Assembly (NCBI RefSeq): GCF_028550435.1 | Contig: NZ_JAQQKV010000001.1 | Coordinates: 1 to 64,000, forward strand | DNA length: 64,000 bases | Direction of reading: 5' to 3' | Origin: Asticcacaulis machinosus | GTDB lineage: Bacteria > Pseudomonadota > Alphaproteobacteria > Caulobacterales > Caulobacteraceae | Shown here: positions 2,066-19,355 of the stretch, in pieces | Position numbering within the stretch: position 1 is the first letter of the stretch | Layout of the letters: every line of letters begins with the position of its first letter | The notes under the pieces: model-generated | Told to the model about the DNA's origin: nothing | What the model saw: only the letters and a program-made list of their open reading frames with translations | The model's database searches: none | Position numbers and translations under genes: made by a program

Positions 2066-3199
2066 TCAAACCTTGATGATCCAGTTCTTACGGCGCAGAT
2101 AATCCATGCACAGCCAGATGAAGGCGATGAACAGAATGACCGGGATCAGGGCGGCGGCGGCATCACCGACCACAGGTTTGGCCCAGTGGTACGGCAGAAG
2201 TGTCAGTTGCCAGCCGACCATGCCCGCAGCCAGATCATGCAGCACATAGGCGGCGATGGCATTGATGCCAAAAGCCAGCGGAATGTTGACAAGCGCGGTG
2301 CCTGCCGCATTGGGTTTGGCGTCCGTATCAAGTACGGCATGAAGCCCTGCCAGACAGATCGTGGTGATGCCGCAGGTCACCAGCACAAAGGTGCTGGACC
2401 AGATGTCTTTGATGACCGGAAACACGAACGCCCAGCCGATCCCGGCGACCAGCATGGCAACACCGGCACCGAGTACGGGCAGAGCTGAATTCTTGCCCTT
2501 ACGGCCTAGAAGATACTCACCGATCGCCACGCCGATCAGGCCATGCGCCAAGGCGGGCAGGGTGCCCAGCAGCCCTTCGGGGTCGTAGCCTTCGGGGCCT
2601 TTGACATAGTTGTGGTTGCCTGCGCCGAACATGGCGCGATCTACCGAGGCCACGAAATTATGGCCGCGCTGCCAGATATCATTTGGTAATCCATCTAGGG
2701 CGGGGGCCAGACTGAGCGGCCAGTACAGGGCTAAGATGGCGATGATGATCCCAATGCGCACCTTTGGGCCACACAGGAAAAACAGCAGTGCGCATCCGCC
2801 GTAGACCAGACCGATGCGCTGAAGCACGCCCCAGAACCGCCATGTCGTTTCAGACAGAGCCGAAAACCACCACAGATTGGCCAGAATAAACCCGATCAGA
2901 AACAACCTGAATGTGCGCCAGAAAATCTTAAGCGCCTGATCTGCGTTCAGGCCGTTCAATTGGCGGGCGCGATCAAGCGCCATAGGGATGGATACCCCGA
3001 CCATCATCAGAAAGGCCGGAAACACCACATCGGCGATCATCAGCCCATCCCAATGGGCATGAAGCAGCGGCGGATAAACCTCAGCGTTCTGGCCATATTT
3101 CATGCCCGCGGTGGCATTGACGAGGATCATACCCATGACCGTCAGTCCGCGCAGAACATCAAGCGAGATCAGTCGAGGTGGTTTGGTGGTATCGGTCAT
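2066..3199 (-). CDS. nagX: NagX-like membrane acyltransferase (DUF5009, HGSNAT-related)
   Basis: 377 residues, about ten membrane segments. The N-terminus carries the family hallmark SLDVLRGLT (12-20). His47 in LLHAHWDGLMIADVVFPAF aligns with the acetyl-accepting active-site His of human heparan-alpha-glucosaminide N-acetyltransferase. The lysosomal enzyme passes acetyl groups across the membrane to glucosamine. In proteobacterial GlcNAc-utilisation regulons the homologue NagX is thought to act in the inner membrane on GlcNAc or its oligomers. The ATG overlaps the stop of the upstream GH20 gene (ATGA at 3196-3199), so the two are co-transcribed and probably translationally coupled. This places the protein firmly in the chitin/GlcNAc pathway. 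Which direction acetyl transfer runs here is unknown. Confidence 0.8.
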   Translation of the reverse strand: MTDTTKPPRLISLDVLRGLTVMGMILVNATAGMKYGQNAEVYPPLLHAHWDGLMIADVVFPAFLMMVGVSIPMALDRARQLNGLNADQALKIFWRTFRLFLIGFILANLWWFSALSETTWRFWGVLQRIGLVYGGCALLFFLCGPKVRIGIIIAILALYWPLSLAPALDGLPNDIWQRGHNFVASVDRAMFGAGNHNYVKGPEGYDPEGLLGTLPALAHGLIGVAIGEYLLGRKGKNSALPVLGAGVAMLVAGIGWAFVFPVIKDIWSSTFVLVTCGITTICLAGLHAVLDTDAKPNAAGTALVNIPLAFGINAIAAYVLHDLAAGMVGWQLTLLPYHWAKPVVGDAAAALIPVILFIAFIWLCMDYLRRKNWIIKV

Positions 3200-5550
3200 G
3201 GCTGGGTATCCGAAGCGGGTCTGAAGGTAATCTGATCGATCACAAAGACCGGATCAAGTGAGGGGCGGGTAAATCCGATGCACAGGTCGTGATGGCCGGT
3301 TTGAGCGGGCACTGCGCCGGTTACGGTTGTCAAACGCGGGTTGGTTTTGATCGTGTCTGGTAAGGCTAAGGTGGCAAGGGGTTCACCTTCGCAGGTTGGA
3401 GCATTGCCGATGCGCTTGCGGATAAACATTTCACCATAAGGTGTGGCGGGTGGCTCAAAGCTGACCTTACGGCGGCCATTGACGGTCAGGAAGTTGAAGG
3501 GCACCTGACCGACGACGGCACGGATATCAAGACCGTGGGACAGATCAGCCTGCGGCCACAGCCAGCACGACTGATATACATTGACGGCAAACACGGCCCG
3601 GTCTTCGCCGGGGGCGTCGTCCTCAAGATGGTGGGGGAAGGGCTCGCCGCAGGTTTGCAACTGATGGCTTTTGCGGGTGGCAACGGTATCAGGGTTTATA
3701 GCGTAGCTGCGCTCCCGCCCCAGAGGTGCGCCATTAATATAGGTTTGGGCCGTAATGTGGGCGGGCATGGCGACGTCAAGTGGGACGGTATAGGTTTCAG
3801 GCGCTGCGCTGTTCAGGCGATAACGTATCTCACCGAGGCTCAGGTGATTAATCAGGGTGAGCTTGGTGGTATCGCCTGCGCGTTCATAAGCTATATCCGG
3901 CTCGAACGGGATGGTGTTGTATGTTACTCCCAGCGCATCCAGTCGTTTGAGCGTCGCGGGCAGGTCCGCGCTGAACCGGCTCCAGTCGCGCTTACTTTGA
4001 GGTGACCAGCCGACTTCGGACAGGGCAATCAGGCGCGGAAACACCATCGTCTCAACGCGGCGGGCGTGGCGCATGTGCTCAGTCCAGACATTGGCCTGCA
4101 CGCCGATGATGTGAGCTTCGCGCTCCGGCGTGATGCCTTCGGGTGTGGAGTCGAAGTCATAGACATCGCGCAGGCTGGCGATCCGTCCACGGCCTGGTGG
4201 CTCATCCGGTGAGGCACTTTGGGCGCTGTCGAGATACAAGACAGGCTCTGGCGACAAAACCGTGTCGTGGCCGAGGGCTGCGGCCGCAACAGCGCCATCC
4301 AAACCGCGCCAGCTCATGACTGTGGCGTCAGGCGCCAAGCCGCCTTCCAGAATTTCATCCCAGCCGATCATGCGCCGTCCGCGTTTGGCAATATGCTGGC
4401 CTATGCGCGTGATGAACCAGCTTTGCAGTTCATCCTCATCTTTCAGGCCAAGGTCTTTGATACGCTGCTGGATGTAGGGGCTGGCGCGCCACTGGTTCTT
4501 GATGGCCTCATCGCCGCCGATGTGGATGTAATCGGACGGGAACAGATCCATGACCTCATCCAGCACATCGGTCAGGAACCGGAACGTCGCATCGTCTATA
4601 TTAAAGAGATAGGGGTAGACGCCCCATTTGTTCATGCTCTCATTGGGCGGTTGTCCGGTGACGCCAAATTCCGGGTAGGCATGGACGGCCGCCAAAGCAT
4701 GGCCGGGCATTTCAATTTCGGGAACGATGGTAATATTGCGGGCGCGCGCATAGGCTATCAGTTCGCGCACGTCATCCTGTGTATAAAAGCCGCCATAGCG
4801 TAAGAGGGCACCTCTTGCGTCAAACCCTTGCGCCCCGGCCAGTTGGCGAAAGGCGGAAGCCTCCGTCAGCTTAGGATAGCGTTTGATCTCCAGCCGCCAA
4901 GCCTGATCGTCGGTCAGGTGCCAGTGCAGGACATTGAGCTTATGGACAGCCATGGCGTCAATCAGCAGGCGGATATCGGATGGGCTTTGATAATGACGCG
5001 CCGAGTCGAGCATCAATCCGCGCCAGCCATAGCGGGGTTGATCCTTTATAGTGAGCGCGGGCAGAGTCGAGTTCTGTTGGGCCAATTGCCAAAGGGTCAT
5101 AGCCCCGTAAAACAGCCCTTCGCGATGGGGCGCCGTTATGGTGATGCCTTCAGGGATAATATCAAGCCTGTAGGCTTCGAGCGCAGAGCTTTCGATATCG
5201 CCGCGCCTGAAACGAATAGCGGCTGGGGTTTGAGGGGGATTCACGAGCTTAAGGCGAACCCCGGTGGTCTGGATGAGCAGGGATTGAAACTGCTTCGCGA
5301 CCCCATAGGCTTCGATATCACCGGCTGGGGTCGCTATCGCAATGCCGGAAGTCAGCCGGAAGTGGCCGTTTGTGGTTACGAGATCAGCGGGGGCTGGCGT
5401 GAGGTGAACCGCTTGCGCGGCTTCAGCGCCGTGAGCCGAAGGCACATATAATCCGGCAAATATCCCGGCAAGCCAAAGCCCAAAGCCTAAGGGGTTGCGG
5501 TATTGGTTTCTCATCAGAGTGATAACTGCGTCTTCTTGCTTGCTTTTCAT
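3196..5550 (-). CDS. Beta-N-acetylhexosaminidase, GH20 (first copy)
   Basis: Family GH20 exo-hydrolase releasing GlcNAc/GalNAc from non-reducing ends by substrate-assisted catalysis. Numbered from the ATG at 5550 (784 residues): an N-terminal membrane-active stretch 20-42 looks like a signal peptide (VPSAHGA); a GH20b domain spans about 45-170; the catalytic barrel about 175-530 contains HIGGDE with Asp347-Glu348; C-terminal beta domains follow (about 540-784), with Cys pairs that fit a periplasmic protein. Three starts are possible: TTG 5559, ATG 5550 and ATG 5514. The last gives the neatest signal peptide (MRNQYRNPLGFGLWLAGIFAG), and none has a convincing ribosome-binding site. The gene heads an operon with the NagX-like gene and is divergent from the TonB-dependent receptor. 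Confidence 0.9.
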   Translation of the reverse strand: MKSKQEDAVITLMRNQYRNPLGFGLWLAGIFAGLYVPSAHGAEAAQAVHLTPAPADLVTTNGHFRLTSGIAIATPAGDIEAYGVAKQFQSLLIQTTGVRLKLVNPPQTPAAIRFRRGDIESSALEAYRLDIIPEGITITAPHREGLFYGAMTLWQLAQQNSTLPALTIKDQPRYGWRGLMLDSARHYQSPSDIRLLIDAMAVHKLNVLHWHLTDDQAWRLEIKRYPKLTEASAFRQLAGAQGFDARGALLRYGGFYTQDDVRELIAYARARNITIVPEIEMPGHALAAVHAYPEFGVTGQPPNESMNKWGVYPYLFNIDDATFRFLTDVLDEVMDLFPSDYIHIGGDEAIKNQWRASPYIQQRIKDLGLKDEDELQSWFITRIGQHIAKRGRRMIGWDEILEGGLAPDATVMSWRGLDGAVAAAALGHDTVLSPEPVLYLDSAQSASPDEPPGRGRIASLRDVYDFDSTPEGITPEREAHIIGVQANVWTEHMRHARRVETMVFPRLIALSEVGWSPQSKRDWSRFSADLPATLKRLDALGVTYNTIPFEPDIAYERAGDTTKLTLINHLSLGEIRYRLNSAAPETYTVPLDVAMPAHITAQTYINGAPLGRERSYAINPDTVATRKSHQLQTCGEPFPHHLEDDAPGEDRAVFAVNVYQSCWLWPQADLSHGLDIRAVVGQVPFNFLTVNGRRKVSFEPPATPYGEMFIRKRIGNAPTCEGEPLATLALPDTIKTNPRLTTVTGAVPAQTGHHDLCIGFTRPSLDPVFVIDQITFRPASDTQP

Positions 5551-5574
5551 TGTTACCAATTAAATACCTATTGG
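5551..5574. promoter_or_regulatory. Candidate operator for the GH20-nagX operon
   Basis: CCAAT (5556-5560) and ATTGG (5570-5574) form an inverted pair directly against the start of the GH20 gene. Read on the minus strand this segment contains TATTTAATTGGTAA, and the same 14 bases occur at 5816-5829 in front of the receptor. The sharing across one divergent region suggests a common regulator. About 240 bp of AT-rich sequence (5575-5800) separates the two; I see no gene in it. Confidence 0.5.
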
Positions 5575-5836: not shown

Positions 5837-6021
5837 GTGATTTTTGAATGCCGCTTGTGCGGGTTGAAATGTCCGAGTGGTATGGGTGCGTCAGGTGGAT
5901 GGTGATGCCGTTGGGGAACTATCCGGCAGCCGTCTTTATCGGCGTTATCGCGGACTTTATGGGCCAGAGCCACTTTCATTCAGGGGAAGGGCGGCCGGGG
6001 ATTATTGGAGGGTTTCAGGGT

Positions 6022-9000
6022 ATGAAGAGTTTACCTAAAATATCGCGCGCACGTAGTCGCCTTCTGGCGGGGTCGGTGCTGGCGAGTGCGGCCGTTTTGG
6101 CCTTTGCAGGGCCTGTGCTGGCTCAGGAGGCGGCCGATACGGATACGACCGAGGTTGTGGTGGTTGGCGCGCGTAAAAACCTGCAATCGGCGCAGCAGAT
6201 CAAGCGCAACGCCGATACGGTCGTCGATTCGATCACGTCTGAGGATATTGGCTCTTTTCCCGATAAGTCGGTGGCCGAAGCCCTGCAACGGGTGGCCGGT
6301 ATTACCGTAACGCGCTTTGCCGGTACGGACGATACCTCGCACTTTTCGGCCGAACCGTCGGGGGTGATCGTGCGCGGCCTGCCGCAGGTGCGCTCGGAAT
6401 TTAACGGTCGCGATACCTTCTCGGCCAACTCGTCGCGGGGCCTGAGCTGGGGCGATATCTCGCCGGAACTGATGGGCCGGATCGATGTCTATAAGAACCA
6501 GACCGCAGAGCTGATCGAAGGCGGTATCGCCGGGTCTATTGATCTGCGCACGCGTCTGCCGTTTGACTCCAGAGGCCGGTCAATGGGTCTGACGGTTGAC
6601 TTTTCTTATGGCGATCGCGCCGAAAAGTGGGCGCCGTCCGTATCAGGCATCTGGTCTGACCGCTGGGAAACGGAACTGGGTGAGTTTGGCCTGATGGGCA
6701 ATCTGGCCTATTCCAAGGTCATCACGGCTTCCGAAGGTGTGCAATATGACCGTATGGCCATTTTCGATGTCGACGCGTTCGGGCCGGGCCTGAGCTATGT
6801 GCCATCTGGCGTCTATATGCGCGAAAATATCTATGACCGCCGCCGCAAAGGTATATCCCTGGCCGGGCAGTGGCGCTCCAACGACCGTACCATGATAGCC
6901 ACCGCGCAGTTCAATCGCTCAAGCTACGATAACTCGTGGAAAGAGCGCTCGATCTATTCGTCAGCATTCTCGATCTATGGTTCGGCGACGGATTCGATTG
7001 TGACGGACGGAGCCTTGCTGGGGGCGCTGACCGGTACTGATCCGCTGGTATTCGACGATCAGGGCAATTTTGTCAGCGGGTCATGGTCGGGCCCGACGCT
7101 TTATCGCGGTGAGGGGCTTGCGGCAGGCTTGCTGCTGGCCGGCAATGAGTTGGGCCAGCCGTTCTTTAATCAATGCTATTCATGGGAAGGCTGCGTTGGG
7201 CGTCAGGCACCGCAACTGGATACAGCCTCAAACCGTTTGAAAAACAACCAGTTCACGCAGGATGCTTCACTTAATTTCAAGTGGAATCCGACCGAAAAGC
7301 TGCGCCTGAATTTCGATGCGCAGTATGTTGAATCCGAAGTGAAAAACTATAACGCTTCGGCGCTGGCGCGCACCTTTGTCAACACCTATGTCGATGCGTC
7401 GGGGAAGTATCCGACCCTGACGTTTGAGCCTGAAGCGGCGGAAAACATCAATCTGTCGCCAGGTGGGCTGAATAACGCCAACAACTATTCGTACTATGCG
7501 GTCACGGAACATACCGAAGACTCTGACGGCACCGAACTGGCGCTGCGGGCCGATGCTGAATACGATTTTGATGGCACATGGCTCGATTCGATCAAGGTTG
7601 GGGTGCGTTATGCGGACCGTGATCAAACAGTGCGCTGGGGGGCCTATAACTGGGCTAACATCGCTAACACCTGGGCCAGTTCCGGCCCGTACTATAATAT
7701 CGACAAGCCGATCTACGGCGACGGCTCATTCGAATATTACACCTTTGATTCCGACTTCTTTGACGGCAATCAGATGAACCATCACACCTTTGCCTTCTTC
7801 AGCATGGATCGCCTGATGGATCGTGAAGGCTTTGGTGAGACCTTGCGGGCGGATCGTGTCAAAGGCCCCGGTTACACCTTGACAGGTGATGATTTCGCGC
7901 CGGTCTGTTCGGGTATTGGCTATCGTACCGGTGAAACCGTTATAAGCGATTACGGCTGTTACCTGCCGAACGAAATCCTGAAATTCAATGAAAAGACCAG
8001 TGCGGCCTATTTCATGCTGAAATTTGGCGGGCCGGACGCTACGATTGGCGGTATTGGCGTTTCGGGTAATATTGGTGCGCGTTATGTCGAAACGACCGAT
8101 AAGACCGAAGGCTCGGTGACCTATCCGGTGGCTTTCTCAAGTGCAGCCTTGGTCTGTACGCGGCCGACGGCCCCGGCACCGGGGGCTCCTGTGCCGCCGC
8201 CAACCACCGGCTGTGTGGTCGGGCCTGAAGAAATCGCCTTCAACAATGGTGGTTTCGTCCTGTCGTCAGCCGAGGCCAAGCATGAGCACTGGCTGCCCAG
8301 CTTTAACCTGAAACTGGATGTGACGGATGAATGGGTGGTGCGTCTGGCGGCGTCTCGTGCGCTGTCGCGTCCGGATGTCGGCCTCCTGCGCAACTATGTA
8401 ACGATTGGCCGGATCAGCCCGAACCTGTCGAACAGCAGTGATCCGAATATTATCCGTAACCCGGCCGGGGATATTGTTGGATATAACTGGCAGTATCAGG
8501 CCAATTCCGGCAACCCGTATCTGGAGCCGATCACGGCCGATCAGTTTGATATTACGGCTGAATATTACTTCGCGTCGGTAGGGTCGTTTACGGCCACGGC
8601 CTTCTATAAGAAGTTCAATAACTATATTCAGGCCGGCACCTATAATCTGGATGTGACCAATAACGGTGTAACCCGCACGGTTCTGGTCGAGGGCCCGATG
8701 AATGGTGATGGTGCCAAGATTTTCGGTCTCGAAGTGGCCTATCAGCGCTTCTTCGACTTCCTGCCCGCACCTTGGGACGGTCTGGGCGTTCAGGCCAACT
8801 ATACCTACGTCAAGAATGACGGGATCGAGACCACCCACCTGACCAATGAAACCGGTCAGGGAACGGGCGGCGGCGGCGTGACTTACGACGCCACGGCGGT
8901 CAAGGCCGATGCTCTCGAAGGCGTGTCTGAAAACGCCTACAACCTCGTGATGATGTACGAAAAGGGTAAACTCTCCGCCCGTCTGGCCTATAACTGGCGC

Positions 9001-9249
9001 GATGAGTTCCTGGTGACGGCCATCGACTGCTGCGTCGGCTTGCCGGTCTGGCAGGAAGCGGCCGGGTATCTTGATGGCTCTGTTCGCTATCGGGTCAATG
9101 ATACGCTGGAACTGTCGGTTCAGGGTTCTAACCTGCTGGGTGAAGACACCGTGCTACTGCAACAGGTCAACAATGACGGCCTGCTCAAGCCGAACGCCTG
9201 GTTCAAAAACGACCGTCGCGTTCAGGTGGGGCTGACGCTTAAATACTAA
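6022..9249 (+). CDS. TonB-dependent outer-membrane receptor, probable chito-oligosaccharide importer
   Basis: 1,075 residues from ATG 6022, chosen because GGAGGG (6007-6012) lies 9 bases upstream and the protein then starts with a signal peptide ending near VLAQEA; an in-frame extension to 5848 lacks both. A TonB-box-like TEVVVVGAR follows, then the plug domain (about 55-200, with SITSEDIGSFPDKSVAEALQ and VIVRGLPQVRSEFNGR) and a long beta-barrel ending in the aromatic-terminated RRVQVGLTLKY. The length and N-terminus fit the Caulobacter/Xanthomonas receptor group used for sugar uptake. Its setting between GH20-nagX and GH18/GH20/GH16 genes argues for chitin oligomers or GlcNAc as the ligand, which is inference. 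A terminator follows, so the downstream halogenase genes may depend on readthrough or their own promoter. Confidence 0.9.
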   Translation: MKSLPKISRARSRLLAGSVLASAAVLAFAGPVLAQEAADTDTTEVVVVGARKNLQSAQQIKRNADTVVDSITSEDIGSFPDKSVAEALQRVAGITVTRFAGTDDTSHFSAEPSGVIVRGLPQVRSEFNGRDTFSANSSRGLSWGDISPELMGRIDVYKNQTAELIEGGIAGSIDLRTRLPFDSRGRSMGLTVDFSYGDRAEKWAPSVSGIWSDRWETELGEFGLMGNLAYSKVITASEGVQYDRMAIFDVDAFGPGLSYVPSGVYMRENIYDRRRKGISLAGQWRSNDRTMIATAQFNRSSYDNSWKERSIYSSAFSIYGSATDSIVTDGALLGALTGTDPLVFDDQGNFVSGSWSGPTLYRGEGLAAGLLLAGNELGQPFFNQCYSWEGCVGRQAPQLDTASNRLKNNQFTQDASLNFKWNPTEKLRLNFDAQYVESEVKNYNASALARTFVNTYVDASGKYPTLTFEPEAAENINLSPGGLNNANNYSYYAVTEHTEDSDGTELALRADAEYDFDGTWLDSIKVGVRYADRDQTVRWGAYNWANIANTWASSGPYYNIDKPIYGDGSFEYYTFDSDFFDGNQMNHHTFAFFSMDRLMDREGFGETLRADRVKGPGYTLTGDDFAPVCSGIGYRTGETVISDYGCYLPNEILKFNEKTSAAYFMLKFGGPDATIGGIGVSGNIGARYVETTDKTEGSVTYPVAFSSAALVCTRPTAPAPGAPVPPPTTGCVVGPEEIAFNNGGFVLSSAEAKHEHWLPSFNLKLDVTDEWVVRLAASRALSRPDVGLLRNYVTIGRISPNLSNSSDPNIIRNPAGDIVGYNWQYQANSGNPYLEPITADQFDITAEYYFASVGSFTATAFYKKFNNYIQAGTYNLDVTNNGVTRTVLVEGPMNGDGAKIFGLEVAYQRFFDFLPAPWDGLGVQANYTYVKNDGIETTHLTNETGQGTGGGGVTYDATAVKADALEGVSENAYNLVMMYEKGKLSARLAYNWRDEFLVTAIDCCVGLPVWQEAAGYLDGSVRYRVNDTLELSVQGSNLLGEDTVLLQQVNNDGLLKPNAWFKNDRRVQVGLTLKY

Positions 9250-9271
9250 GCCGTCCTCAGCGGTTGGAATG

Positions 9272-9305
9272 TGGCGCATCACCGGATCGGTGGTGCGCCA
9301 TTTTT
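9272..9305 (+). terminator. Rho-independent terminator after the TonB-dependent receptor
   Basis: TGGCGCATCACC (9272-9283) pairs with GGTGGTGCGCCA (9289-9300) with one G-U wobble and a 5-base loop, followed by TTTTT (9301-9305). It lies 23 bp after the receptor stop and about 100 bp before the first halogenase gene. Confidence 0.85.
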
Positions 9306-9401
9306 GTATAATAAATTGATTTTCATGACTAAATTATTTTCCTGAACGCTTGTGGACTTATGATTTGTCTGTAATCATCCTCAGCATAAGGTGAGGGCGT
9401 A

Positions 9402-10925
9402 ATGAACAAACTGAAAGTCGTCATTGTGGGGGGCGGAACGTCAGGCTGGATGACGGCGGCGGCCTTTGCCGGCGTCACAAAGCGTGAGCAGGTTGAGGTG
9501 CAACTGATCGAGTCCGATGAGATCGGCACCGTTGGCGTCGGTGAGGCGACCTTGCCGCACATCAAGGATTTCAACGACTATATCGGCATCAATGAGGCCG
9601 AATTCATGCGCAAAACCCAAGCCACGATCAAGCTGGGGATCGAGTTTGTCGACTGGGGTAAGATTGGGAATCGTTATTTCCATCCGTTCGGAAAGTTCGG
9701 GGCGCCGATGGGGGCAACTGACTTTTTCCAGATGTGGCTGCGGGCTCGCAAAGAGGGCCTTGAAGCGCCGCTTGAGGATTTTTGCTACGCCATAGTGGCC
9801 TCAAAACAAAACCGGTTTGAGTTTCCGTCACGGGACGGCAATTCGGTCAAGGCGTCTTACGCCTACGCCTATCATTTCGATGCGTTTTTATATGCGCGTT
9901 TTCTGCGGGAGTTTTCCGAAGCGCGCGGCATTATCCGCACCGAGGGCAAGATCACGGATGTAACGCTGGATCAGCATAGCGGTGATATCCGGTCGGTCAC
10001 CCTGGCGTCGGGTGAGGTAGTTACCGGCGATCTGTTTATCGACTGTTCGGGGTTCAGAGGGCTGCTGATTTCGGGCGCGCTCAAGGTCGGTTATCAGGAC
10101 TGGACGCCGTGGCTACCCTGCGATCGGGCAGTGGCGGTGCCGTGTGATCGAACCACAAACGAGATAACCCCTTACACCCGCTCGACCGCCCGCGCGGCGG
10201 GCTGGCAGTGGCATATCCCGCTTCAGCACCGCACGGGGAATGGCTATGTCTATTCCAGCCGGTTTATTTCGGATGATGAGGCGGCGGCGACACTTCTGGC
10301 CAATCTTGATGGTGCGGCTCAGGCCGATCCGCGCCCGTTACGCTTTACGGCCGGGCGGCGGGAAAAGTGCTGGCATAAGAACTGTGTGACGATCGGGTTG
10401 GCCAGTGGATTCCTGGAGCCGCTGGAATCGACCAGTATCTATCTGGTGCAGATGGCGATTACATTCCTGCTGAGATTGCTGCCGCGCGAGCATGTAATGG
10501 ATCAGACGCTTGAGGACGAATTTAACCGCCTGATCGATGTCGAATATGAGCGGGTGCGCGATTTCCTGATCCTGCATTACCACGCCAATACGCGCACCGA
10601 CGCGCCGATGTGGCAATACTGCCGTGACATGGATATTCCAGACAGCCTGCGCGACAAAATCGCCCGCTTTAAGCATCGCGGCTATATCCACGCCTATGCC
10701 GATGGCCTGTTCGCGCCGCCAAGCTGGCAGGCGGTGTTCTTCGGGCAGGACATAGTGCCGGAGCGCTATGATGCGCTGGCCGAAGTCATGGATCGGGACG
10801 TGCTGCTGACGCGCATGACGGATTTGCGCACGCTGATTGCGGACGGTGTGTCGACCATGCCGGGCCATGATGACTTTATTCGCGGCTATTGCGATGCCGG
10901 TAAGGCAATAGAGGCTGTGCGATGA
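9402..10925 (+). CDS. Flavin-dependent tryptophan-halogenase-like protein, intact active-site motifs (copy 1)
   Basis: 507 residues. The family oxidises halide with FADH2 and O2; HOX then reacts through the catalytic Lys with an electron-rich substrate. Present here: the FAD-binding GGGTSGW near the N-terminus (11-17), GVGEATLP, Lys77 in TIKLGIEF (equivalent to Lys79 of PrnA), the halogenase signature GWQWHIP at 267-273, and Glu342-Ser343 in GFLEPLESTS (equivalent to Glu346-Ser347 of PrnA). All residues expected for catalysis are kept. The stop overlaps the next gene (ATGA, 10922-10925). No flavin reductase, which such enzymes need, lies nearby. Homologues beside TonB-dependent receptors in Caulobacter and Xanthomonas are linked to GlcNAc-induced loci (from memory), with unknown natural substrates. 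Confidence 0.85.
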   Translation: MNKLKVVIVGGGTSGWMTAAAFAGVTKREQVEVQLIESDEIGTVGVGEATLPHIKDFNDYIGINEAEFMRKTQATIKLGIEFVDWGKIGNRYFHPFGKFGAPMGATDFFQMWLRARKEGLEAPLEDFCYAIVASKQNRFEFPSRDGNSVKASYAYAYHFDAFLYARFLREFSEARGIIRTEGKITDVTLDQHSGDIRSVTLASGEVVTGDLFIDCSGFRGLLISGALKVGYQDWTPWLPCDRAVAVPCDRTTNEITPYTRSTARAAGWQWHIPLQHRTGNGYVYSSRFISDDEAAATLLANLDGAAQADPRPLRFTAGRREKCWHKNCVTIGLASGFLEPLESTSIYLVQMAITFLLRLLPREHVMDQTLEDEFNRLIDVEYERVRDFLILHYHANTRTDAPMWQYCRDMDIPDSLRDKIARFKHRGYIHAYADGLFAPPSWQAVFFGQDIVPERYDALAEVMDRDVLLTRMTDLRTLIADGVSTMPGHDDFIRGYCDAGKAIEAVR

Positions 10926-12427
10926 TTGCGTCGCCTGCGCCGCCTAAGCGGGTCGTCATCGTCGGCAGTGATATCGACGCCTGGCTGAGCGCCAATACCG
11001 TGCTGCGGGCCTTGGCGACCCACGGCGTTGAGGTCAGTGTGGTCGAGACCCGCGCTCACCTGACGCCTTCGGATGTGACTGAGGCCCTGCCGGAGTTTCG
11101 TAAATTCATGCGGCTGCTCAACCTGCCCGAAGCGGCGGTGCTGCAATCAGGCGCCGGGGCACTTAGTCTTGGGCAGCGCTTTGCCAATTTTTCGGGCAAG
11201 GGCGCGTTTATGAATGCTTATGGCCCAACGGGGCCGGCGTCTTTGAGCACCAATTTCGTCCAGCACTGGGTGCGGGCGCGCCAGATGGGGCTACCGGCGG
11301 AGTATGAAACCTTCAACCTGACCGCTATGGCGGCCCAGACCGGACATTTGCTTATGCCTGCGCAGGCGGTGGCAGGGACAATGCCTAGCGAATATGGCTA
11401 TCATCTGATGGCGGCCGGATTGGCTTCGTTTCTGAAAGCCGTTGCGGTGCGCCGTGGGGCCAAGGTTTATGCCGGTGAGCATTTTGGTCTGAAACGGGCG
11501 CAAGACGGGGCCATCTCAGCGGTTTTGGCCAGCGACGGTGCGGTCATCGAAGGCGATCTGTTTATTGATGCGACGGGCGCACAAGGCCGGTTAATCGGTG
11601 CGCTTGAGGCGACGAATTCAGAAAGCTGGCGCGATCTCTATCCGTGCAACCGGTTGCTGACGGCGGCCACAGGTGTGTTCCGACCGCTGCCGCTCTATGC
11701 TCAAATATCGGCCAGCCGTCATGGCTGGTGGGGGTTATATCCGCAGCGAAGTCAGACCACGCTTCAGATGGCCTTTGATGGCGAACGGCTGAGTGACGAT
11801 GAAGCGCTTGAGGCCGCCCATAGCCTGTCGGGGCAGGCCCTGTCGGGTATTTCAGTGCAGGAGATGACGCAGGGTATGCGCTCGCAGCCGTGGGTGCAAA
11901 ACTGTCTGGCGGTAGGGGCTGCGGCGGCACGGTTCGATCCGCTGGACGCAGCGCCCCTACAATCCCTTCAGATTGCCCTAAGCCATCTGGTGGCGCTCTA
12001 TCCGGTGACGGCTGATATGGCGATTGAGCGCGATATCTATAATCAAACGGTGTCCGATCATTACCGCCGCCTGCGTGATTATCAGTTGGTGCGCTACAGA
12101 CTTAACCGGCGTTTTGATGATCCGCTGTGGGATAGAGCGCGCGATATGGCGACGCCCGACGCTCTGGCCTATAAGCTTAAAGTGTTTGAGGCCCGCGGTC
12201 TGATGGTGCGCTATGACCATGAAAGCTTTAATGAGGATAGCTGGCAGATGCTGGCTATTGGTCATGGCCTGATCCCAAAGTCCTATGATCCGCAGATCGA
12301 CCATGCCGATGAGGCTGCCACAATGCGTACCTTCCAGAGCCATCTGGCCGTCATCAGGCAGCAGGTCGGGATTATGACACTACACGAAGAGGCGCTGATG
12401 GCGGTGGTGCAGGCGACACCGGCATGA
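10922..12427 (+). CDS. Degenerate tryptophan-halogenase paralogue, likely non-catalytic (copy 2)
   Basis: 501 residues, alignable with its neighbours along the whole length (for example the C-terminal YNQTVSDHYRRLRDYQLVRY block), but the active-site positions have changed. The dinucleotide-binding GGGTSGW is VGSDIDAW; the catalytic Lys position is Ser82 (ALSLGQRF); the WxWxIP signature is GWWGLYP at 268-274; and the Glu-Ser pair is Asp342-Ala343 (FDPLDAAP). FAD binding and halide chemistry are therefore doubtful. The reading frame is intact and coupled by ATGA overlaps at both ends, so it is not a decaying pseudogene; a structural or regulatory partner role is the simplest inference. Alternatively it is a divergent flavoprotein with a new activity. 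Confidence 0.8.
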   Translation: MIASPAPPKRVVIVGSDIDAWLSANTVLRALATHGVEVSVVETRAHLTPSDVTEALPEFRKFMRLLNLPEAAVLQSGAGALSLGQRFANFSGKGAFMNAYGPTGPASLSTNFVQHWVRARQMGLPAEYETFNLTAMAAQTGHLLMPAQAVAGTMPSEYGYHLMAAGLASFLKAVAVRRGAKVYAGEHFGLKRAQDGAISAVLASDGAVIEGDLFIDATGAQGRLIGALEATNSESWRDLYPCNRLLTAATGVFRPLPLYAQISASRHGWWGLYPQRSQTTLQMAFDGERLSDDEALEAAHSLSGQALSGISVQEMTQGMRSQPWVQNCLAVGAAAARFDPLDAAPLQSLQIALSHLVALYPVTADMAIERDIYNQTVSDHYRRLRDYQLVRYRLNRRFDDPLWDRARDMATPDALAYKLKVFEARGLMVRYDHESFNEDSWQMLAIGHGLIPKSYDPQIDHADEAATMRTFQSHLAVIRQQVGIMTLHEEALMAVVQATPA

Positions 12428-13908
12428 CGGCCGTGGGTAAAACCGTCATTGTCGGCGGCGGCACCGCGGGCTGGATGGCCGCAGCCGCGATTGCCCGAGC
12501 CATTGGCACTGATCATCACGAGATCTGCCTGATCGAGTCCGATGCCATTGGCACGGTTGGGGTGGGCGAAGCCACTATCCCGCCCATACAGGATTTTAAT
12601 GCCTTTCTGGGCATCGACGAAGACGACTTTATCCGTGAGACGAAGGCGACGTTCAAACTGGGGATCGAGTTTATAAACTGGCGCAAGCCGGGGCATACAT
12701 ATTTCCACCCCTTTGGCGTCTATGGCCGGGATTTTGACGGCATACCCTTTCAGCACTTTATGCTCAGGGGATTGAAGGACGGTGTGGCCGCGGACTATGG
12801 CCTCTACAATCTGGAGACTATGGCGGCGCGGGTGGGAGCCTTTGCACGGACATCAAAAGGCGCACCGGTCGGCTATGCCTATCATTTTGACGCGGGGCTT
12901 TATGCCCATTACCTGCGCCGCTATGCCGAACGGCGCGGGGTTAAGCGGATAGAAGGTGAAATTACCGATGTCACCTTAAACCCCGATGATGGGTTTATCC
13001 GGTCGGTGACGCTGAAAACCGGCGCGGTCGTGGCGGGTGATTTCTTTATCGATTGCTCTGGTTTCAGGGGGCTGCTGATCGAGCAGGCGCTGAAATCCGG
13101 CTATGAAGACTGGTCGAAATGGCTGCCCGCCGATCGGGCGGTGGCGGTGCCGTGTGCCACCCCTGCCGGTGATATCCTGCCCTATACCCGATCAACGGCG
13201 CGTGAAGCGGGATGGCAATGGCGCATCCCGCTTCAACACCGGATCGGCAATGGCTATGTCTTTTCAAGCGCGTTTATCTCGGAATCTGAGGCGACCGACA
13301 CCCTGATGGCCAACCTGGATGGTGAGGCGCTGGCTGAGCCGCGCGTGCTGAAGTTTGTCACCGGCCGCAGGCGTCAAAGCTGGGTCAAAAACTGCGTGGC
13401 GCTGGGGTTATCGAGCGGGTTTCTGGAGCCGCTGGAATCGACCAGCATCCACCTGATCCATGCCGGTGTGATCCGGTTGCTGGGGCTATACCCTAAATCC
13501 GGTTTTGTGCCCGCGGTCATTGATCGGTTCAACCAAGAAATGGAATCCGACTATACCACCGTCAAGGATTTCCTGATCGCCCACTATCATGTGACCGAGC
13601 GCGACGACACACCGTTCTGGGCCTATTGCCGTAACTATGACCCGCCCGATAGTTTAAAGGCGCGGCTGGAACTTTACCGGTCGTGCGGGCAGGTCATGCC
13701 GACGGTGCTTGAGCTATTCAAAGATACCAACTGGTTTGCGATCCTGATGGGGCAGGGCCTGGTGCCCGATGATTATCACACCATTGCCGACCGTCTACCG
13801 GACGATGAACTGCGTCTGCGGCTGGATGAGGTGCGAAGGCAGGTGGCCGCGAGATTGGCGGATTTGCCGCGCCACGGCGATTATATCGCTAAAATCATCA
13901 ATCCTTAA
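12424..13908 (+). CDS. Flavin-dependent tryptophan-halogenase-like protein, intact active-site motifs (copy 3)
   Basis: 494 residues, closely similar to the protein at 9402. GGGTAGW is at 11-17, GVGEATIP follows, Lys78 sits in TFKLGIEF, GWQWRIP is at 263-269, and Glu338-Ser339 lie in SGFLEPLEST. Long shared blocks such as YAYHFDA, DRAVAVPC and PYTRSTAR suggest a fairly recent duplication with copy 1. The ATG overlaps the stop of the middle paralogue (12424-12427). The 3' end overlaps the GH18 gene on the other strand by 11 bp. As with copy 1, the fold and cofactor are well supported, while the substrate is not; annotation as tryptophan 7-halogenase would overstate the evidence. Confidence 0.85.
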   Translation: MTAVGKTVIVGGGTAGWMAAAAIARAIGTDHHEICLIESDAIGTVGVGEATIPPIQDFNAFLGIDEDDFIRETKATFKLGIEFINWRKPGHTYFHPFGVYGRDFDGIPFQHFMLRGLKDGVAADYGLYNLETMAARVGAFARTSKGAPVGYAYHFDAGLYAHYLRRYAERRGVKRIEGEITDVTLNPDDGFIRSVTLKTGAVVAGDFFIDCSGFRGLLIEQALKSGYEDWSKWLPADRAVAVPCATPAGDILPYTRSTAREAGWQWRIPLQHRIGNGYVFSSAFISESEATDTLMANLDGEALAEPRVLKFVTGRRRQSWVKNCVALGLSSGFLEPLESTSIHLIHAGVIRLLGLYPKSGFVPAVIDRFNQEMESDYTTVKDFLIAHYHVTERDDTPFWAYCRNYDPPDSLKARLELYRSCGQVMPTVLELFKDTNWFAILMGQGLVPDDYHTIADRLPDDELRLRLDEVRRQVAARLADLPRHGDYIAKIINP

Positions 13909-14920
13909 GGGCGGCCTTAGCGGTTGTGATCAGGCGATGATCGTCGGTGTCCTGGGAGATTTCCCACACCATAATCCCGGCACCTTTGTCTGCGGCCAGT
14001 TTGGTCTTTTTCTGTAAGGTTTCCAGACCGTTGTAGGTGACATATGAACACCCGCCGCAGCGTTTGCCGATTACATCCGTTTTGAGAATGTCCTCACCAT
14101 AACGGGCAATCAGATCGCGCATCCCACCGTAACCGTCCTTATAGTCGCCAAAGCCGTAGCCATAAAATGGCACGCCCAGCACCAGCTTATCTTTGGGGAC
14201 ACCACGCGCGCGCCACAGATCCATATCGCGCTTTGCCTGTGACAGCGGGGAGTGCTCATCGCCCGGTGTGCCCCAGCTTGGGCCGATAGCGTCATAGGCC
14301 ATGACATTGACCAGATCGAAATAGGGGATGGACGATATCGGTATCATGCCGCCTTCATAGGAGGCCGTGGCGCAGGTCAAAAGCTTGCCCCGCGCTTTCA
14401 GGGCTGCGCTCAAGGCCGCAATAAACGGCGTGTAATTTCCGGCCTTATCGATCTCGGTCAAAAGGGCACCTTCGATATCGACATCAAGGCCATCAAGGCC
14501 ATAATCATCGACCAGCTTGATCAGATCGGCCACCACAATATCGCGGTTATGCGGTTCCAGCATGATACGCCAGTCCCCAGAGCATTGCGGAATAGTCCCG
14601 CCGCCGAGTGACACCAGAACCTTGACGCTCTTGGCATGGGCCAGATCCACCGCGGTGCGTAAGGATTCGCTCGTGACCTGAACTCCGCCCGCGTCAGGCA
14701 TGCAGGTCATCTTGCCATCTGATACGACGGCTCCGGTCGGGTCAGGATTGATGAACGACAGATTGAGGTGGGTGTATTGACCAATATCAGCCTTGGCCAT
14801 GATCGGCCCCATGCCCTTGAAGGCCGGAACATAACCAATAACGACCGGAGCTTTGGGTTCTGCGAGCGCGGGCTGAGTGGCCAGAAGAGCCGTGATCACT
14901 GCGGCAATTTTGGTATTCAT
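13898..14920 (-). CDS. Secreted GH18 chitinase/endo-N-acetylglucosaminidase-like protein
   Basis: 340 residues. Signal peptide MNTKIAAVITALLATQPALA, then a GH18 barrel. The SxGG-type strand is VLVSLGGG (101-108) and the catalytic DxxDxDxE motif is DGLDVDIE with Glu150 as acid; the later MAYD (substrate-assist strand) is also present. GH18 enzymes cut beta-1,4 GlcNAc linkages with retention. The small size and the lack of binding modules point to a soluble periplasmic or secreted enzyme acting on oligomers rather than crystalline chitin. Cys residues in KRCGGCSY may form a disulfide. Two TTGGTATT half-sites 10 bp apart straddle the start codon, suggesting shared control with the rest of the island. 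Confidence 0.88.
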   Translation of the reverse strand: MNTKIAAVITALLATQPALAEPKAPVVIGYVPAFKGMGPIMAKADIGQYTHLNLSFINPDPTGAVVSDGKMTCMPDAGGVQVTSESLRTAVDLAHAKSVKVLVSLGGGTIPQCSGDWRIMLEPHNRDIVVADLIKLVDDYGLDGLDVDIEGALLTEIDKAGNYTPFIAALSAALKARGKLLTCATASYEGGMIPISSIPYFDLVNVMAYDAIGPSWGTPGDEHSPLSQAKRDMDLWRARGVPKDKLVLGVPFYGYGFGDYKDGYGGMRDLIARYGEDILKTDVIGKRCGGCSYVTYNGLETLQKKTKLAADKGAGIMVWEISQDTDDHRLITTAKAALKD

Positions 14921-15242: not shown

Positions 15243-15287
15243 CGGAGCGCGCCGACTGTGGTATGGTCGCGGCGCGCTCCGTTTTTT
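15243..15287 (+). terminator. Terminator-like hairpin inside the GH20 leader
   Basis: CGGAGCGCGCCG (15243-15254) and CGGCGCGCTCCG (15270-15281) are perfectly complementary over 12 bp with a 15-base loop, followed by TTTTTT (15282-15287). The nearest upstream gene is transcribed away, so the hairpin cannot end an ordinary gene. It lies 28 bases before the GH20 ATG. It could be an attenuator or the 3' end of a small RNA. Confidence 0.7.
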
Positions 15288-15314
15288 ACAGATTTGGGGC
15301 GACGGGAGCAGATC

Positions 15315-17876
15315 ATGAAAACATGGCTATTGGCAGGGGTTGCGGTGGCGTTGATGAGCGGCGCTATGGGGGCGCAGGCCGCGCCGGCTACGCTTTTGCA
15401 AAGCGAACTGGATCGCTTTGCATCGGATCTTGGCTACCGCTATACGATCGAGGACAATAAACCGGCCTGTCCGCAAGGGGGAAATGGCTGTTTTTTATCT
15501 GAAATTGAGGTGCGTTTGCCGCAAACCCTGCCGGACGATCTGGCGGCGGGGAAATTCACGCTTTATGTAAGCTTTGTGACGCGCCTGCTCGGTATCGACA
15601 GCGGACTGTTTGATCTCAAATTCATCAATGGTGATCTCTATACCCTGACACCTAAGGCCGGTGTAAAGCTGAAGGCCGGGCAGACGATTAAGATCAAGGT
15701 CTGGGGTGAGGGGCAATTCTATTCCGCCTATTACCCCATGCCGAATGTCTATGCCGTGTCCGGTGATCTGAAAGCGGTGACCATCGCGGCCACAAAGCCC
15801 TATATCGATCCGGAAACCGGCCTTGAGAGTCTGCCGTTTGTGACGCCGATGACCGATGAGGCGAAACTGGCTACCAAACATGCCGATGATCAGACGCAGT
15901 GGCTGACGCCGGAGCGGGCCTTTACGCAGAACGCGGCACGCACGGTGGCGCAGGCAAAACCCGAAATCGTTATCCTGCCAACGCCGGCCAAGGTGACATG
16001 GCTAGAAGGCCCTGTGGTGGATATGACGGGTGGTGTCGACCTTAGCCTAAAAGGTGTGACGGCTGAGCAGATCGGGAATGCCTTAAATGACTTCAGGGGC
16101 GTTTCAGATGTCGATGCAAAGCCAGCCAGGCTTAAGGTGACCGTGGATGCCAAATCGGGCATAGCGGCCGAAGGCTACAGGCTCAAAATCGAAAAGGGTA
16201 TGATTAGCCTTACGTCTGCTGATGCTGCGGGGGCCGCCTATGGCCTGACGTCACTGGCGCAGCAGGCGGCCCATGATAAGGGCAAGCTGAAACCGATGCT
16301 GATCGAAGACGCGCCGCGTCTTCCGTTCCGCGGGCTCCATGTCGATGTGGCGCGTAATTTCCATTCCAAAGCCGAAATGCTGAAAATCATCGATCAGATG
16401 GCGGAATTTAAGCTCAACAAGCTGCATTTCCACCTGGGCGAGGACGAAGGCTGGCGGGTTGAGATCAAGGCTTTGCCGGAGCTGGCGACCGTTGGCAGTA
16501 CGCGCTGCCATGACCCGAAGGAAGACATCTGCCTGCTGCCGCAACTGGGGGCGGGGCCAGATGCGGATACACCGGTAAATGGCTATTACAGTCAGGCCGA
16601 TTACATCGACATTCTAAATTATGCCAAGGCGCGCCATATCGAGGTCATTCCGTCCTTTGATATGCCCGGCCATTCGCGCGCCGCTGTCCGGTCGATGGAA
16701 GCACGCTATCGCCGTCTGATGGCTGAAGGCAAGCCCGATGAGGCCAATCTGTACCGGCTGGTCGAACCCGAAGACACCACGGTTTACGATAGCATCCAGC
16801 ATTATAATGACAACACGCTCAATGTCTGTATTCCGGCCACCTACCGTTTTCTGGATACGGTGATTGATGAGGTCGCGGCCATGCACCAAGCGGCGGGGGT
16901 GCCGCTCAAAAAATACCATATCGGGGCCGATGAAACGGCCGGCGCATGGTCTAAGTCTCCGGCCTGCCAGAAACTGATGGCGGCGGAAAAGCTGGAGCCT
17001 AAACAACTGTCGGCCTATTTCATCGAAAAGGTTTCCAACCGTCTGGCTGAACGTAACATTGAGGCGGCGGGCTGGAGCGACGGCATGGGGCATACCGATG
17101 CAGCGAAAATGCCGAAAGCCGTACAAAGTAATATCTGGAGCGGCCTGTTCACGGGTGCCGCGGCTGAAGCCCACAATCACGCCAATCGTGGCTGGGATGT
17201 GGTGATTTCGATCCCTGACACCTTCTATTTCGACATTCCGCAAAGCGTTGATCCGATGGAGCGCGGTTATGACTGGCCGTCACGGGTGACCGATACCTAT
17301 GAGGTGTTTGGCTTTATTCCTGAAAACATTCCGGCCAATGCCTCGTGGCTGAAAGATATTCGGCACAAACCCGGCACGATCGAGGACAAAACGCCGCTAA
17401 ATGCCGGATTGAAATTCAAAGGCCTGCAAGGGCAACTCTGGTCGGAAACCGTGCGCAGTGATGCTCAGGTCGATTACATGCTGTTCCCGCGTGTGCTGGG
17501 GCTGGCCGAGCGGGCCTGGCATAAGGCGGCGTGGGAGCCGCAATATAGGGCGGGTGAATCTTACACTTATCATGACGGCAAGGTCGATCGCGTGGCGCAA
17601 GCTAAAGACTGGCAGACCTTCCGCGATAAGATGCCGGTGCATCTGCAAAGGCTTGAGGCCGCCGGTGTCGAGTACCGTATCGCGCCACCGGGGGCGCGGG
17701 TTGTAGGCGGCAAACTGGAAGTCAACACCGAGTTCGCGCATCCGGTCGAATACCGTTTGGCGGGCGGGCAATGGCAGGTCTACACCGGGCCGGTCGCGGT
17801 GACGGGGGCGGTTGAAGTCCGTGCCCGTAGCTATGATGGCAAACGGGCTGGGCGCTCATCAAAGGTGGGGGGATAG
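15315..17876 (+). CDS. Chitobiase-type beta-N-acetylhexosaminidase, GH20 (second copy)
   Basis: 853 residues from ATG 15315, chosen over an in-frame start at 15258 because GGGAG (15304-15308) precedes it and a signal peptide ending near AQAAPA follows; the earlier start would lie inside the terminator hairpin. Domains in order: an N-terminal chitobiase carbohydrate-binding-like domain (about 25-190), a GH20b domain (about 205-325), the catalytic barrel (about 330-740) with HIGADE containing Asp539-Glu540, and a short C-terminal Ig-like domain (about 780-853). This architecture is that of bacterial chitobiases, which split chitobiose and chito-oligomers to GlcNAc. It complements the shorter GH20 at 3196. 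A GH16 gene follows immediately in the same unit. Confidence 0.92.
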   Translation: MKTWLLAGVAVALMSGAMGAQAAPATLLQSELDRFASDLGYRYTIEDNKPACPQGGNGCFLSEIEVRLPQTLPDDLAAGKFTLYVSFVTRLLGIDSGLFDLKFINGDLYTLTPKAGVKLKAGQTIKIKVWGEGQFYSAYYPMPNVYAVSGDLKAVTIAATKPYIDPETGLESLPFVTPMTDEAKLATKHADDQTQWLTPERAFTQNAARTVAQAKPEIVILPTPAKVTWLEGPVVDMTGGVDLSLKGVTAEQIGNALNDFRGVSDVDAKPARLKVTVDAKSGIAAEGYRLKIEKGMISLTSADAAGAAYGLTSLAQQAAHDKGKLKPMLIEDAPRLPFRGLHVDVARNFHSKAEMLKIIDQMAEFKLNKLHFHLGEDEGWRVEIKALPELATVGSTRCHDPKEDICLLPQLGAGPDADTPVNGYYSQADYIDILNYAKARHIEVIPSFDMPGHSRAAVRSMEARYRRLMAEGKPDEANLYRLVEPEDTTVYDSIQHYNDNTLNVCIPATYRFLDTVIDEVAAMHQAAGVPLKKYHIGADETAGAWSKSPACQKLMAAEKLEPKQLSAYFIEKVSNRLAERNIEAAGWSDGMGHTDAAKMPKAVQSNIWSGLFTGAAAEAHNHANRGWDVVISIPDTFYFDIPQSVDPMERGYDWPSRVTDTYEVFGFIPENIPANASWLKDIRHKPGTIEDKTPLNAGLKFKGLQGQLWSETVRSDAQVDYMLFPRVLGLAERAWHKAAWEPQYRAGESYTYHDGKVDRVAQAKDWQTFRDKMPVHLQRLEAAGVEYRIAPPGARVVGGKLEVNTEFAHPVEYRLAGGQWQVYTGPVAVTGAVEVRARSYDGKRAGRSSKVGG

Positions 17877-17877
17877 T

Positions 17878-18666
17878 ATGCGGATAGTGATTGCCATTGC
17901 CGCGCTAATGGCTGGCGCCGCTCAGGCGGAAGCGCCGGCGGGTTATAAACTGGTCTGGGCCGATGAATTTACCACCGATGGTCAGCCCGATCCGGTCAAC
18001 TGGAGCTTTGATACCCATGCCAATAAAATAGGCTGGTACAATAATGAGCTTCAGTACTATTCCGCCGGTCGCCCCGAAAATGCCCGTCAGGAAGAGGGCA
18101 AGCTGATTATAACGGGCCGTAAAGAGCGGCTGGAGAGCATGGCCGATTATGGTGGTCAAAACTATACATCGGCGCGCCTGATCAGTAAGGGCAAGCAAAC
18201 CTTCACTTACGGCTTTTTTGAAATCCGCGCCAAAATGCCGTGCGGAAAGGGCACATGGCCCGCGATCTGGATGCTGGGGGAGACGGCCGGCTGGCCCGAT
18301 GGCGGGGAAATCGACATTATGGAACATGTGGGGAAGGATCCTGAGACCATCCACGGCACTATCCACAACCGCTCGACCGCCGGTACATCCGGTAAGGGCA
18401 ACAGCATCCACATGCCGGATGCCTGCTCGGCCTTTCACAACTACCAGATCGAATGGACAGCCGATAAGATCGACTTCTTTGTCGATGGCCGCAAATACCA
18501 TACATACGTCAACGAAGGCAGCGGCGTGTCTCAGTGGCCGTTCAATAAGGCGCAGTATGTGTTGCTCAACCTGGCCATCGGTGGGGCTATGGCTGGTGAG
18601 GTCGATGACGCGGTTTTGCCGGCTGAATTTCAGATCGACTATGTGCGGGTGTATCAGAAAGACTAA
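17878..18666 (+). CDS. Secreted GH16 beta-glucanase (laminarinase-like)
   Basis: 262 residues from ATG 17878, one base after the GH20 stop; the ribosome-binding site (GGTGGGG) is inside the end of that gene. Signal peptide to about residue 17 (AAQAEA). The GH16 active-site motif ExDxxE is GEIDIME with Glu144, Asp146 and Glu149, and the surrounding WPAIWMLGE and YVRVYQKD ends are typical of bacterial beta-1,3(4)-glucanases. The likely reaction is endo-hydrolysis of beta-1,3-glucan with retention. Its coupling to a chitobiase suggests a polymer mixture such as fungal cell wall, which is inference. The stop overlaps the gene on the opposite strand (CTAA at 18663-18666). Confidence 0.88.
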   Translation: MRIVIAIAALMAGAAQAEAPAGYKLVWADEFTTDGQPDPVNWSFDTHANKIGWYNNELQYYSAGRPENARQEEGKLIITGRKERLESMADYGGQNYTSARLISKGKQTFTYGFFEIRAKMPCGKGTWPAIWMLGETAGWPDGGEIDIMEHVGKDPETIHGTIHNRSTAGTSGKGNSIHMPDACSAFHNYQIEWTADKIDFFVDGRKYHTYVNEGSGVSQWPFNKAQYVLLNLAIGGAMAGEVDDAVLPAEFQIDYVRVYQKD

Positions 18667-19355
18667 GCACGTGTGACGAACATATTGGCGGTCAGGCGGC
18701 CCTTGCCAGGATCGGTGGATAGCTTTGCCGGGGCGACAATGGCTGAATGCAGCAGGTTGGAATTATAGATTACCAGCCGGTTATACTGCGCCTCGACCTT
18801 TCCAATCAGGGTGAAATCATCATCTGAGCCGTCAAAATAAGCGCGAGGGCGGGCCTCAAGGCGGGGCAGGGCGGTGCTGATGTGGCGGTTATAGCCATCG
18901 GCATAGGCAGGCGTCAGGGTTTCAAGCCCGCTCAGATTATGGCGATAAAAGCCGGTCGCCCCATGCTCCGGCCCACACAGATAGACCAACACCGCCAGAG
19001 TGTCGCCGTCGGTCACATCATAGTGCGGAATGGTCTGCATCGGGTGCAGATCGGCAGCCGCATCGGTGACCAGCCCGAAATAGCCACTGCCACCGATAGG
19101 CGCACTGACGGGCAGACCGTAGGCTTTGTCGAGCAGGGGGCGCACACCCGCGACAATGACATTAGCCAGTTCCGGCGGCAGGTAGGCGTTCAGACCGGGA
19201 TAGAGCGTCGCCGGGCGTTGAAACTCAGCCACACGGGCGGCGTCCGTAAGCATTTCAGGATTAAGCAGGGCGTCATCAATCACCACGATCCGTGAGCGGC
19301 TACGCCCGACCTCCAGCTTTTGCGGGCGGGCATTTCGGTTGAGGCGCAGGGTCAC
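18663..19355 (-). CDS. DUF6445-like protein, putative 2OG-Fe(II) oxygenase fold
   Basis: 230 residues, cytoplasmic, no signal peptide. I recognise the family as one of unknown function seen near TonB-dependent receptor/halogenase loci. What can be seen is a possible iron facial triad, His111-x-Asp113 in IPHYDVTDG and His203 in NLLHSA, with Arg220 placed where 2-oxoglutarate is bound in the double-stranded beta-helix oxygenases; a beta-rich pattern lies between. This resembles prolyl-hydroxylase-like proteins, but activity is inference. The gene shares a 4-bp ATGA junction with the upstream MOSC gene on the same strand and overlaps the GH16 stop tail to tail. It may be the functional partner of the halogenase genes rather than of MOSC. 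Confidence 0.6.
   Translation of the reverse strand: MTLRLNRNARPQKLEVGRSRSRIVVIDDALLNPEMLTDAARVAEFQRPATLYPGLNAYLPPELANVIVAGVRPLLDKAYGLPVSAPIGGSGYFGLVTDAAADLHPMQTIPHYDVTDGDTLAVLVYLCGPEHGATGFYRHNLSGLETLTPAYADGYNRHISTALPRLEARPRAYFDGSDDDFTLIGKVEAQYNRLVIYNSNLLHSAIVAPAKLSTDPGKGRLTANMFVTRA

Follow-up and report, generated by a model that had tools for sequence, protein, structure and literature searches.

A halogenase-like protein without catalytic residues is encoded together with an intact partner at TonB-dependent receptor loci

Introduction

The locus described here raises the question of why a bacterium keeps a full-length halogenase-like gene that has lost its catalytic signatures directly beside intact genes of the same family. 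The gene lies in a 64,000-nt stretch of DNA from Asticcacaulis machinosus, which we analyzed as a whole and refer to as the window. A preliminary description of the window had reported three consecutive halogenase homologues coupled by ATGA overlaps, with the outer two intact and the middle one degenerate, and had proposed a pseudoenzyme partner, a heteromeric complex, or a flavin-free activity tied to chitin uptake. Receptor-linked halogenases are abundant, with 23 in this 3.8-Mb genome. In the open-access literature, no report of a receptor-linked pairing of an intact with a dead halogenase was among the matches listed, and a search for halogenase together with pseudoenzyme returned nothing.

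Results

The genes of the window locus that are relevant here are as follows.

3196..5559, minus strand: second GH20 beta-hexosaminidase, context (PF00728, 393 bits)
5848..9249, plus strand: TonB-dependent receptor (TBDT) of the TIGR01782 TonB-Xanth-Caul type (PF00593 and PF07715; TIGR01782 629 bits versus a cut-off of 310)
9402..10925, plus strand: gene A, intact halogenase-like partner, 507 aa (PF04820, 637 bits)
10922..12427, plus strand: gene B, degenerate halogenase-like protein, 501 aa (PF04820, 283 bits)
12424..13908, plus strand: gene C, second intact halogenase-like protein, 494 aa, optional member (PF04820, 621 bits)
13898..14920, minus strand: GH18 chitinase-type hydrolase, context (PF00704, 118.6 bits)
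15258..17876, plus strand: GH20 beta-hexosaminidase, context (PF00728, 312 bits)
18663..19355, minus strand: DUF6445 protein, context (PF20043, 208.8 bits)

The true start of the receptor is likely at about 6022, where the reading frames of the sister loci start. All three halogenase-like genes score above the curated cut-off of Pfam Trp_halogenase (PF04820), 21 bits, and thus belong to this family. Their stop and start codons overlap as ATGA at 10922 (A/B) and 12424 (B/C), which confirms the run of three coupled homologues. We rejected membership of A, B, and C in the LodB and QhpG families, which act in the maturation of protein cofactors: the NCBIfam models gave approximately 19 to 32 bits, far below their cut-offs of 240 and 400.

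The motif comparison also bore out the distinction between the outer genes and the middle one. Window A and C retain GGGT[SA]GW, GVGEA, the Lys, GWQWxIPL, and LEPLEST, so that by sequence both have the flavin fingerprint, the Lys, the WxWxIP motif, and the Glu-Ser pair of halogenases. At the same places, B has GSDIDAW, Ser for Lys, GWWGLYP, and DPLDA; it has lost all four signatures yet is full length. The identity of B to any paralogue in the genome is at most 28.5%, compared to 51.6% between A and C.

We surveyed the distribution of B at several taxonomic levels. Among 25 genomes of the genus, there were 25 B-type matches in 21 genomes, each at least 305 bits, and the next full-length match, which came from the intact copies, scored 234 bits. 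One further genome (G016) has B over two frames, and three have none by the profile search. Loss or frameshift in most relatives, the outcome that would speak against a retained function, is therefore not the pattern within the genus: B is whole in 21 of the 25 genomes, frameshifted in one, and lacking in three. For the family, class, and phylum surveys, we scored the best 3 to 5 candidates per genome. On this basis, whole B, scoring at least 480 bits in the family survey (next group, at most 426 bits), is present in 47 of 299 family genomes, in 2 of 385 genomes of the class sample, and in 2 of 398 genomes of the phylum sample, with the window's own genome counted in both samples. The best 80 of 115 relatives of B belong to Asticcacaulis, Caulobacter, Brevundimonas, Phenylobacterium, Sphingomonas, Sphingopyxis, Parvularcula, Aquisalinus, Niveispirillum, Steroidobacter, and Povalibacter, and whole orthologues among these 80 extend beyond the family to Sphingomonadales, Parvularculales, and Steroidobacterales. 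Several family matches carried flags for stops inside the gene; we re-examined five such cases (L205 to L209), and the gene was whole each time.

Two loci have B over two frames, namely L092 of genome G016 (7902-9403, minus strand) and L191 (9491-10983, plus strand), with whole A and C adjoining. Given these copies, B is dispensable in some genomes.

In total, we examined 107 loci. Before counting, we dropped three B fragments at contig starts (L180, L188, and L197), the two-frame copies of L092 and L191, and 16 duplicate loci; 61 nonredundant B genes were counted after duplicate removal. All 77 full-length B frames (duplicates included) are located within 200 nt 3' of a halogenase-like gene on the same strand, and 45 of the 77 also precede one. 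In each of the 61 nonredundant loci, B is directly 3' of A, which is whole in 60 loci and represented by its 3' part in L139, at a contig end. C accompanies the pair in 30 of the 61 loci and is absent from 31, including L152, where the contig stops just past B and the presence of C is therefore undecidable. We rejected the triad as the unit on these counts, which also run against the expectation that the degenerate paralogue always lies between two intact ones. The observation is better framed as an A-B pair than as a triad, and the interpretation given in the preliminary description is supported in part.

The reading frames of A and B overlap in all but one of the 60 whole pairs, and in the remaining pair a single nucleotide separates them; the 59 overlaps measure 4 nt in 22 pairs, 8 nt in 11, 1 nt in 3, and more in 23, and the long ones may stem from the choice of start codons, which was made by script. 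In a FastTree phylogeny of 251 proteins, including 17 further copies from the window's own genome, B forms one clade (61 proteins, support 100) and A forms one clade (60 proteins, support 99), with no foreign row within either; C is looser, its 30 members grouping with 2 others. An 89-row IQ-TREE phylogeny concurs (18 B and 20 A, support 100 each).

The gene 3' of B varied in two further ways. C of genome G022 (L072, 8384-9927, plus strand) runs over two frames and is whole in the close sister L073. In G009, a very divergent halogenase-like frame of 348 aa (L085, 5416-6462, minus strand) directly follows B and overlaps the long frame of the next gene.

We also searched the 299 family genomes with a profile of A, under the same limit on candidates per genome, and obtained 51 A matches alongside 51 B matches. 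Whole B follows 49 of the 51 A genes. Of the other two, one adjoins the frameshifted B of G016 and one (G157) sits where its contig ends. Conversely, two B matches lack a listed A (G019 and G205), and in both genomes A is present just under the cut-off. This cut-off was 1e-245 (approximately 817 bits), the lowest known A scoring 785 bits and the nearest other gene 781, and the survey spans A above it. Overall, an obligate A-B partnership is well supported.

The residue losses seen in the window extend through the B clade. The catalytic Lys, Glu342, and the third Gly of the flavin fingerprint are each found in 0 of 61 B proteins. The second fingerprint Gly is retained in 4 and the first in all 61, hence the GxGxxG fingerprint as a whole is not preserved. 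The Ser after the catalytic Glu position is retained in 13 of 61, no B has the second Trp of WxWxIP, which leaves this motif incomplete throughout, and the GVGEA loop is absent. The catalytic Lys, Glu, and flavin-fingerprint glycines are intact in 60 of 60 A proteins, and the Lys and Glu are present in 30 of 30 C proteins. Of 109 positions conserved among intact copies, B has lost 42 and kept 37, and the share kept is larger in the C-terminal helices (9 of 14) than elsewhere (28 of 95; Fisher P = 0.015 with region bounds of our choosing). Judged by these residues, B probably does not bind FAD. Because the ribose Glu (56 of 61) and the first Gly (61 of 61) persist, B may bind a nucleotide in some manner.

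B consists of a single PF04820 domain end to end, with no extra domain. It is predicted to have the box-and-pyramid halogenase fold (AF2 model, pLDDT 88.2, pTM 0.90), and the structure nearest to the model is BrvH (6frl, TM 0.91).

Selection on the degenerate gene, for which the preliminary description had suggested dN/dS as a measure, proved to be purifying, with values of 0.072 to 0.160 in 16 pairs. In 16 of 16 pairs, dN/dS was higher for B than for A, and B evolves faster (B versus A distance ratio of 1.72). Because the same residues are lost clade-wide and dN/dS lies at 0.07 to 0.16, the degeneration of B goes beyond chance or decay. B is a full-length PF04820 protein stripped of flavin and catalytic residues, and it is not decaying.

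Of the 61 B loci, 54 have a receptor gene 2.5 to 5 kb upstream in the same orientation, and the order TBDT-A-B is constant. Tree distances of A and B are correlated with r = 0.87, compared to at most 0.145 in 1,000 permutations, and the receptor agrees with both (TBDT-A, r = 0.91; TBDT-B, r = 0.86; 54 loci). The receptor, A, and B trees are thus concordant. In the 30 triads, r was 0.875 for A-C and 0.900 for B-C. Because C correlates too, the agreement of the trees indicates co-inheritance rather than contact.

The idea that the whole system is tied to chitin uptake did not hold up. GH20 genes are near 6 of the 61 loci and GH18 genes near 5 (flanks of approximately 8 kb, with genes farther away outside this view), and we rejected chitin as the general role. 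Window A and B belong to a seven-locus sublineage (support of 99 for B and 96 for A) made up of the window, three sisters, L071, Sphingomonas gilva (L149), and Sphingosinithalassobacter (L162). GH18 and GH20 are near five of these loci and GH20 near the Sphingosinithalassobacter locus; at L071, neither GH18 nor GH20 occurs within the 14 kb examined, and a GntR-UTRA regulator is present. The receptors of the sublineage are mutual nearest neighbors. Because GH18 or GH20 genes adjoin most of its loci, chitin use is a mark of this sublineage, which spans two orders, and not of the whole family. Two other kinds of neighbor are more widespread across the 61 loci, DUF6445 (near 28) and Cupin_8 (near 27). 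In the open-access literature, no DUF6445 protein was among the matches listed for DUF6445 with halogenase.

The window's own genome (3.77 Mb) has 23 PF04820 genes, which occupy 24 rows in our table as one gene fills two. Many of them adjoin large receptor-sized reading frames. A second trio of intact, degenerate, and intact genes is present at approximately 1.005 Mb of contig C1 (L025), near a receptor and GH10 and GH3 genes. Its degenerate gene (6718-8112, minus strand) does not belong to the B clade but to another lineage, which we call X, and is 82% identical to a gene in an Asticcacaulis MAG (L173). X is the second gene of arrays in many Sphingomonas, Maricaulis-type, and other genomes. 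In the 22 X proteins compared, Lys77 and Glu342 are mostly gone and the glycines are often retained; we removed L200 from X, given that it is intact by motif. A tree of 110 rows places the A partners of B and X together in one clade (support 98) and B with X in another (support 100), although the latter joins long branches and the tree program cautions that this grouping could be spurious. It is possible that the intact/degenerate pair originated only once.

Discussion

B has lost its catalytic residues, is under purifying selection, is strictly paired with one clade of A, and has codiversified with both its partner gene and the receptor. This combination suggests that the inactive protein functions as a partner of the intact enzyme. 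We consider it reasonably probable (approximately 0.6) that B acts as a pseudo-halogenase subunit, forming a heteromer with A and serving the receptor locus. Among the proposals of the preliminary description, a pseudoenzyme partner in a putative heteromeric complex fits best, given that B is conserved, selected, and one-to-one with the A clade; the position in the middle of three and the system-wide tie to chitin were not sustained.

We infer physical assembly of A with B, the activity of A, and the substrate. A and B, translated from overlapping frames, would form a heteromer through the dimer surface normally used for homodimers in this enzyme class, probably in place of the usual homodimer. 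A would perform the flavin chemistry. B, having given up its own flavin and catalytic site, would instead offer a structural, substrate-recruiting, or regulatory surface suited to the class of substrates handled by the neighboring TonB-dependent receptor. Both proteins are likely to be cytoplasmic, because their N-termini start directly at the first Rossmann strand. Such a heteromer could have originated when a duplicated homodimer subunit lost its own chemistry and stayed bound to its sister, which would account for the strict pairing, the overlap, the concentration of losses in the active site, and the selection on B. As for the dimer surface, BrvH is described as eluting as a dimer (PMC5945002), and the same dimer is described as recurring in crystals of the enzyme class (PMC5945002, PMC7336383, PMC11840605). 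Against assembly, we counted the description of Xcc4156 and AbeH as apparently monomeric in solution (PMC7336383, PMC11840605), the faster evolution of B, its two-frame copies in G016 and L191, and the fact that agreeing trees arise from shared operon inheritance alone.

Among the alternatives, it is unlikely, if still worth weighing, that B is an enzyme in its own right, with the old flavin pocket refashioned to accommodate a different ligand or a reaction without flavin, and acting consecutively with A instead of in a complex. Former cofactor positions in B are occupied by Asp17 (57 of 61), His63 (56 of 61), and Gln85 (54 of 61), each found in <2% of 166 intact rows; loop 43-52 is confidently predicted (means of 92 to 93 over 10-residue blocks); and purifying selection on B is strong. 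However, position 77 (Ser in 36 proteins, Thr in 16, Ala in 4, Val in 4, and Cys in 1) and position 342 (Asp in 30, His in 20, Gly in 6, Phe in 4, and Val in 1) vary freely, unlike a single fixed new active site, and membership in a common pathway would not require so close a pairing with a single A clade.

More doubtful is a role for B as a maturation factor, flavin-delivery helper, or regulator of A or of the receptor that forms no stable halogenase-like dimer. The constant TBDT-A-B order and the concordant trees suit such a role, but B carries no extra domain that would indicate a mechanism. It is very improbable that B binds FAD noncanonically and halogenates: a whole halogenase fold is predicted and the first Gly and the ribose Glu are kept, but the GVGEA loop is gone and no B has the Lys, Glu342, or the third fingerprint Gly. 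That B is a decaying, functionless duplicate retained by chance, as the missing catalytic residues and the two-frame copies might hint, can be dismissed as contradicted by the dN/dS values, by 61 whole nonredundant copies in one clade, and by one-to-one retention with A.

Paired paralogues that work as a heterodimer are found in the KS-alpha/KS-beta (chain length factor) proteins of type II polyketide synthases, in which one paralogue lacks the active-site residue; their fold and chemistry are unrelated to those of A and B, and the comparison is an analogy only. KS-CLF heterodimers are mentioned in PMC13311259, a 2026 study whose available text provides the closest precedent for A-B, a conceptual one. 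It describes Ams8 as a flavin-halogenase-like protein with a blocked FAD site and a replaced catalytic Lys, proposes a heterodimer with the intact Ams9, and cites work reporting that the product is lost when ams8 is deleted. As in the A-B loci, an inactive paralogue is encoded with an intact one; the A-B heterodimer itself is putative. Ams8/Ams9, as described there, belongs to a single natural-product cluster (armeniaspirol) in a PltA-like, carrier-bound halogenase setting, and its complex is a prediction, whereas B is a conserved tryptophan-halogenase-type clade at receptor loci with 61 nonredundant whole copies. The closest solved structures to B are BrvH (6frl), Xcc4156 (6y1w), and 9luq. 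BrvH and Xcc4156 share fold and family with B but are described as functional flavin-dependent halogenases, and B is without the required residues. The available text of PMC5945002 reports no convincing natural substrate for BrvH, whose gene also has a halogenase-like neighbor. If A works only with B, then its activity would have escaped assays in which B was not included, and co-expressing the two offers a direct test. If the heteromer reading is true, these loci would also provide a conserved pseudoenzyme system for studying how an inactive flavoprotein directs its active counterpart.

A more specific version, quite unlikely as a whole, is that TBDT-A-B forms a receptor-specific modification module. 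In such a module, the dead subunit of an obligate A-B heterodimer would pick the target, and aromatic groups would be oxidized or halogenated either on the cognate receptor before export or on an imported aromatic-bearing nutrient, frequently alongside DUF6445 and Cupin_8 enzymes of the locus; an intact/degenerate pair that originated once could have given rise to both the B and X kinds.

Two minor features of the neighborhoods concern reading frames. Long antisense frames in two neighbor clusters (356 and 568 aa) had no Pfam match and were discarded. The receptor upstream of the trio in genome G020 (L070, 9071-12301, minus strand) consists of two frames, and its sisters have one.
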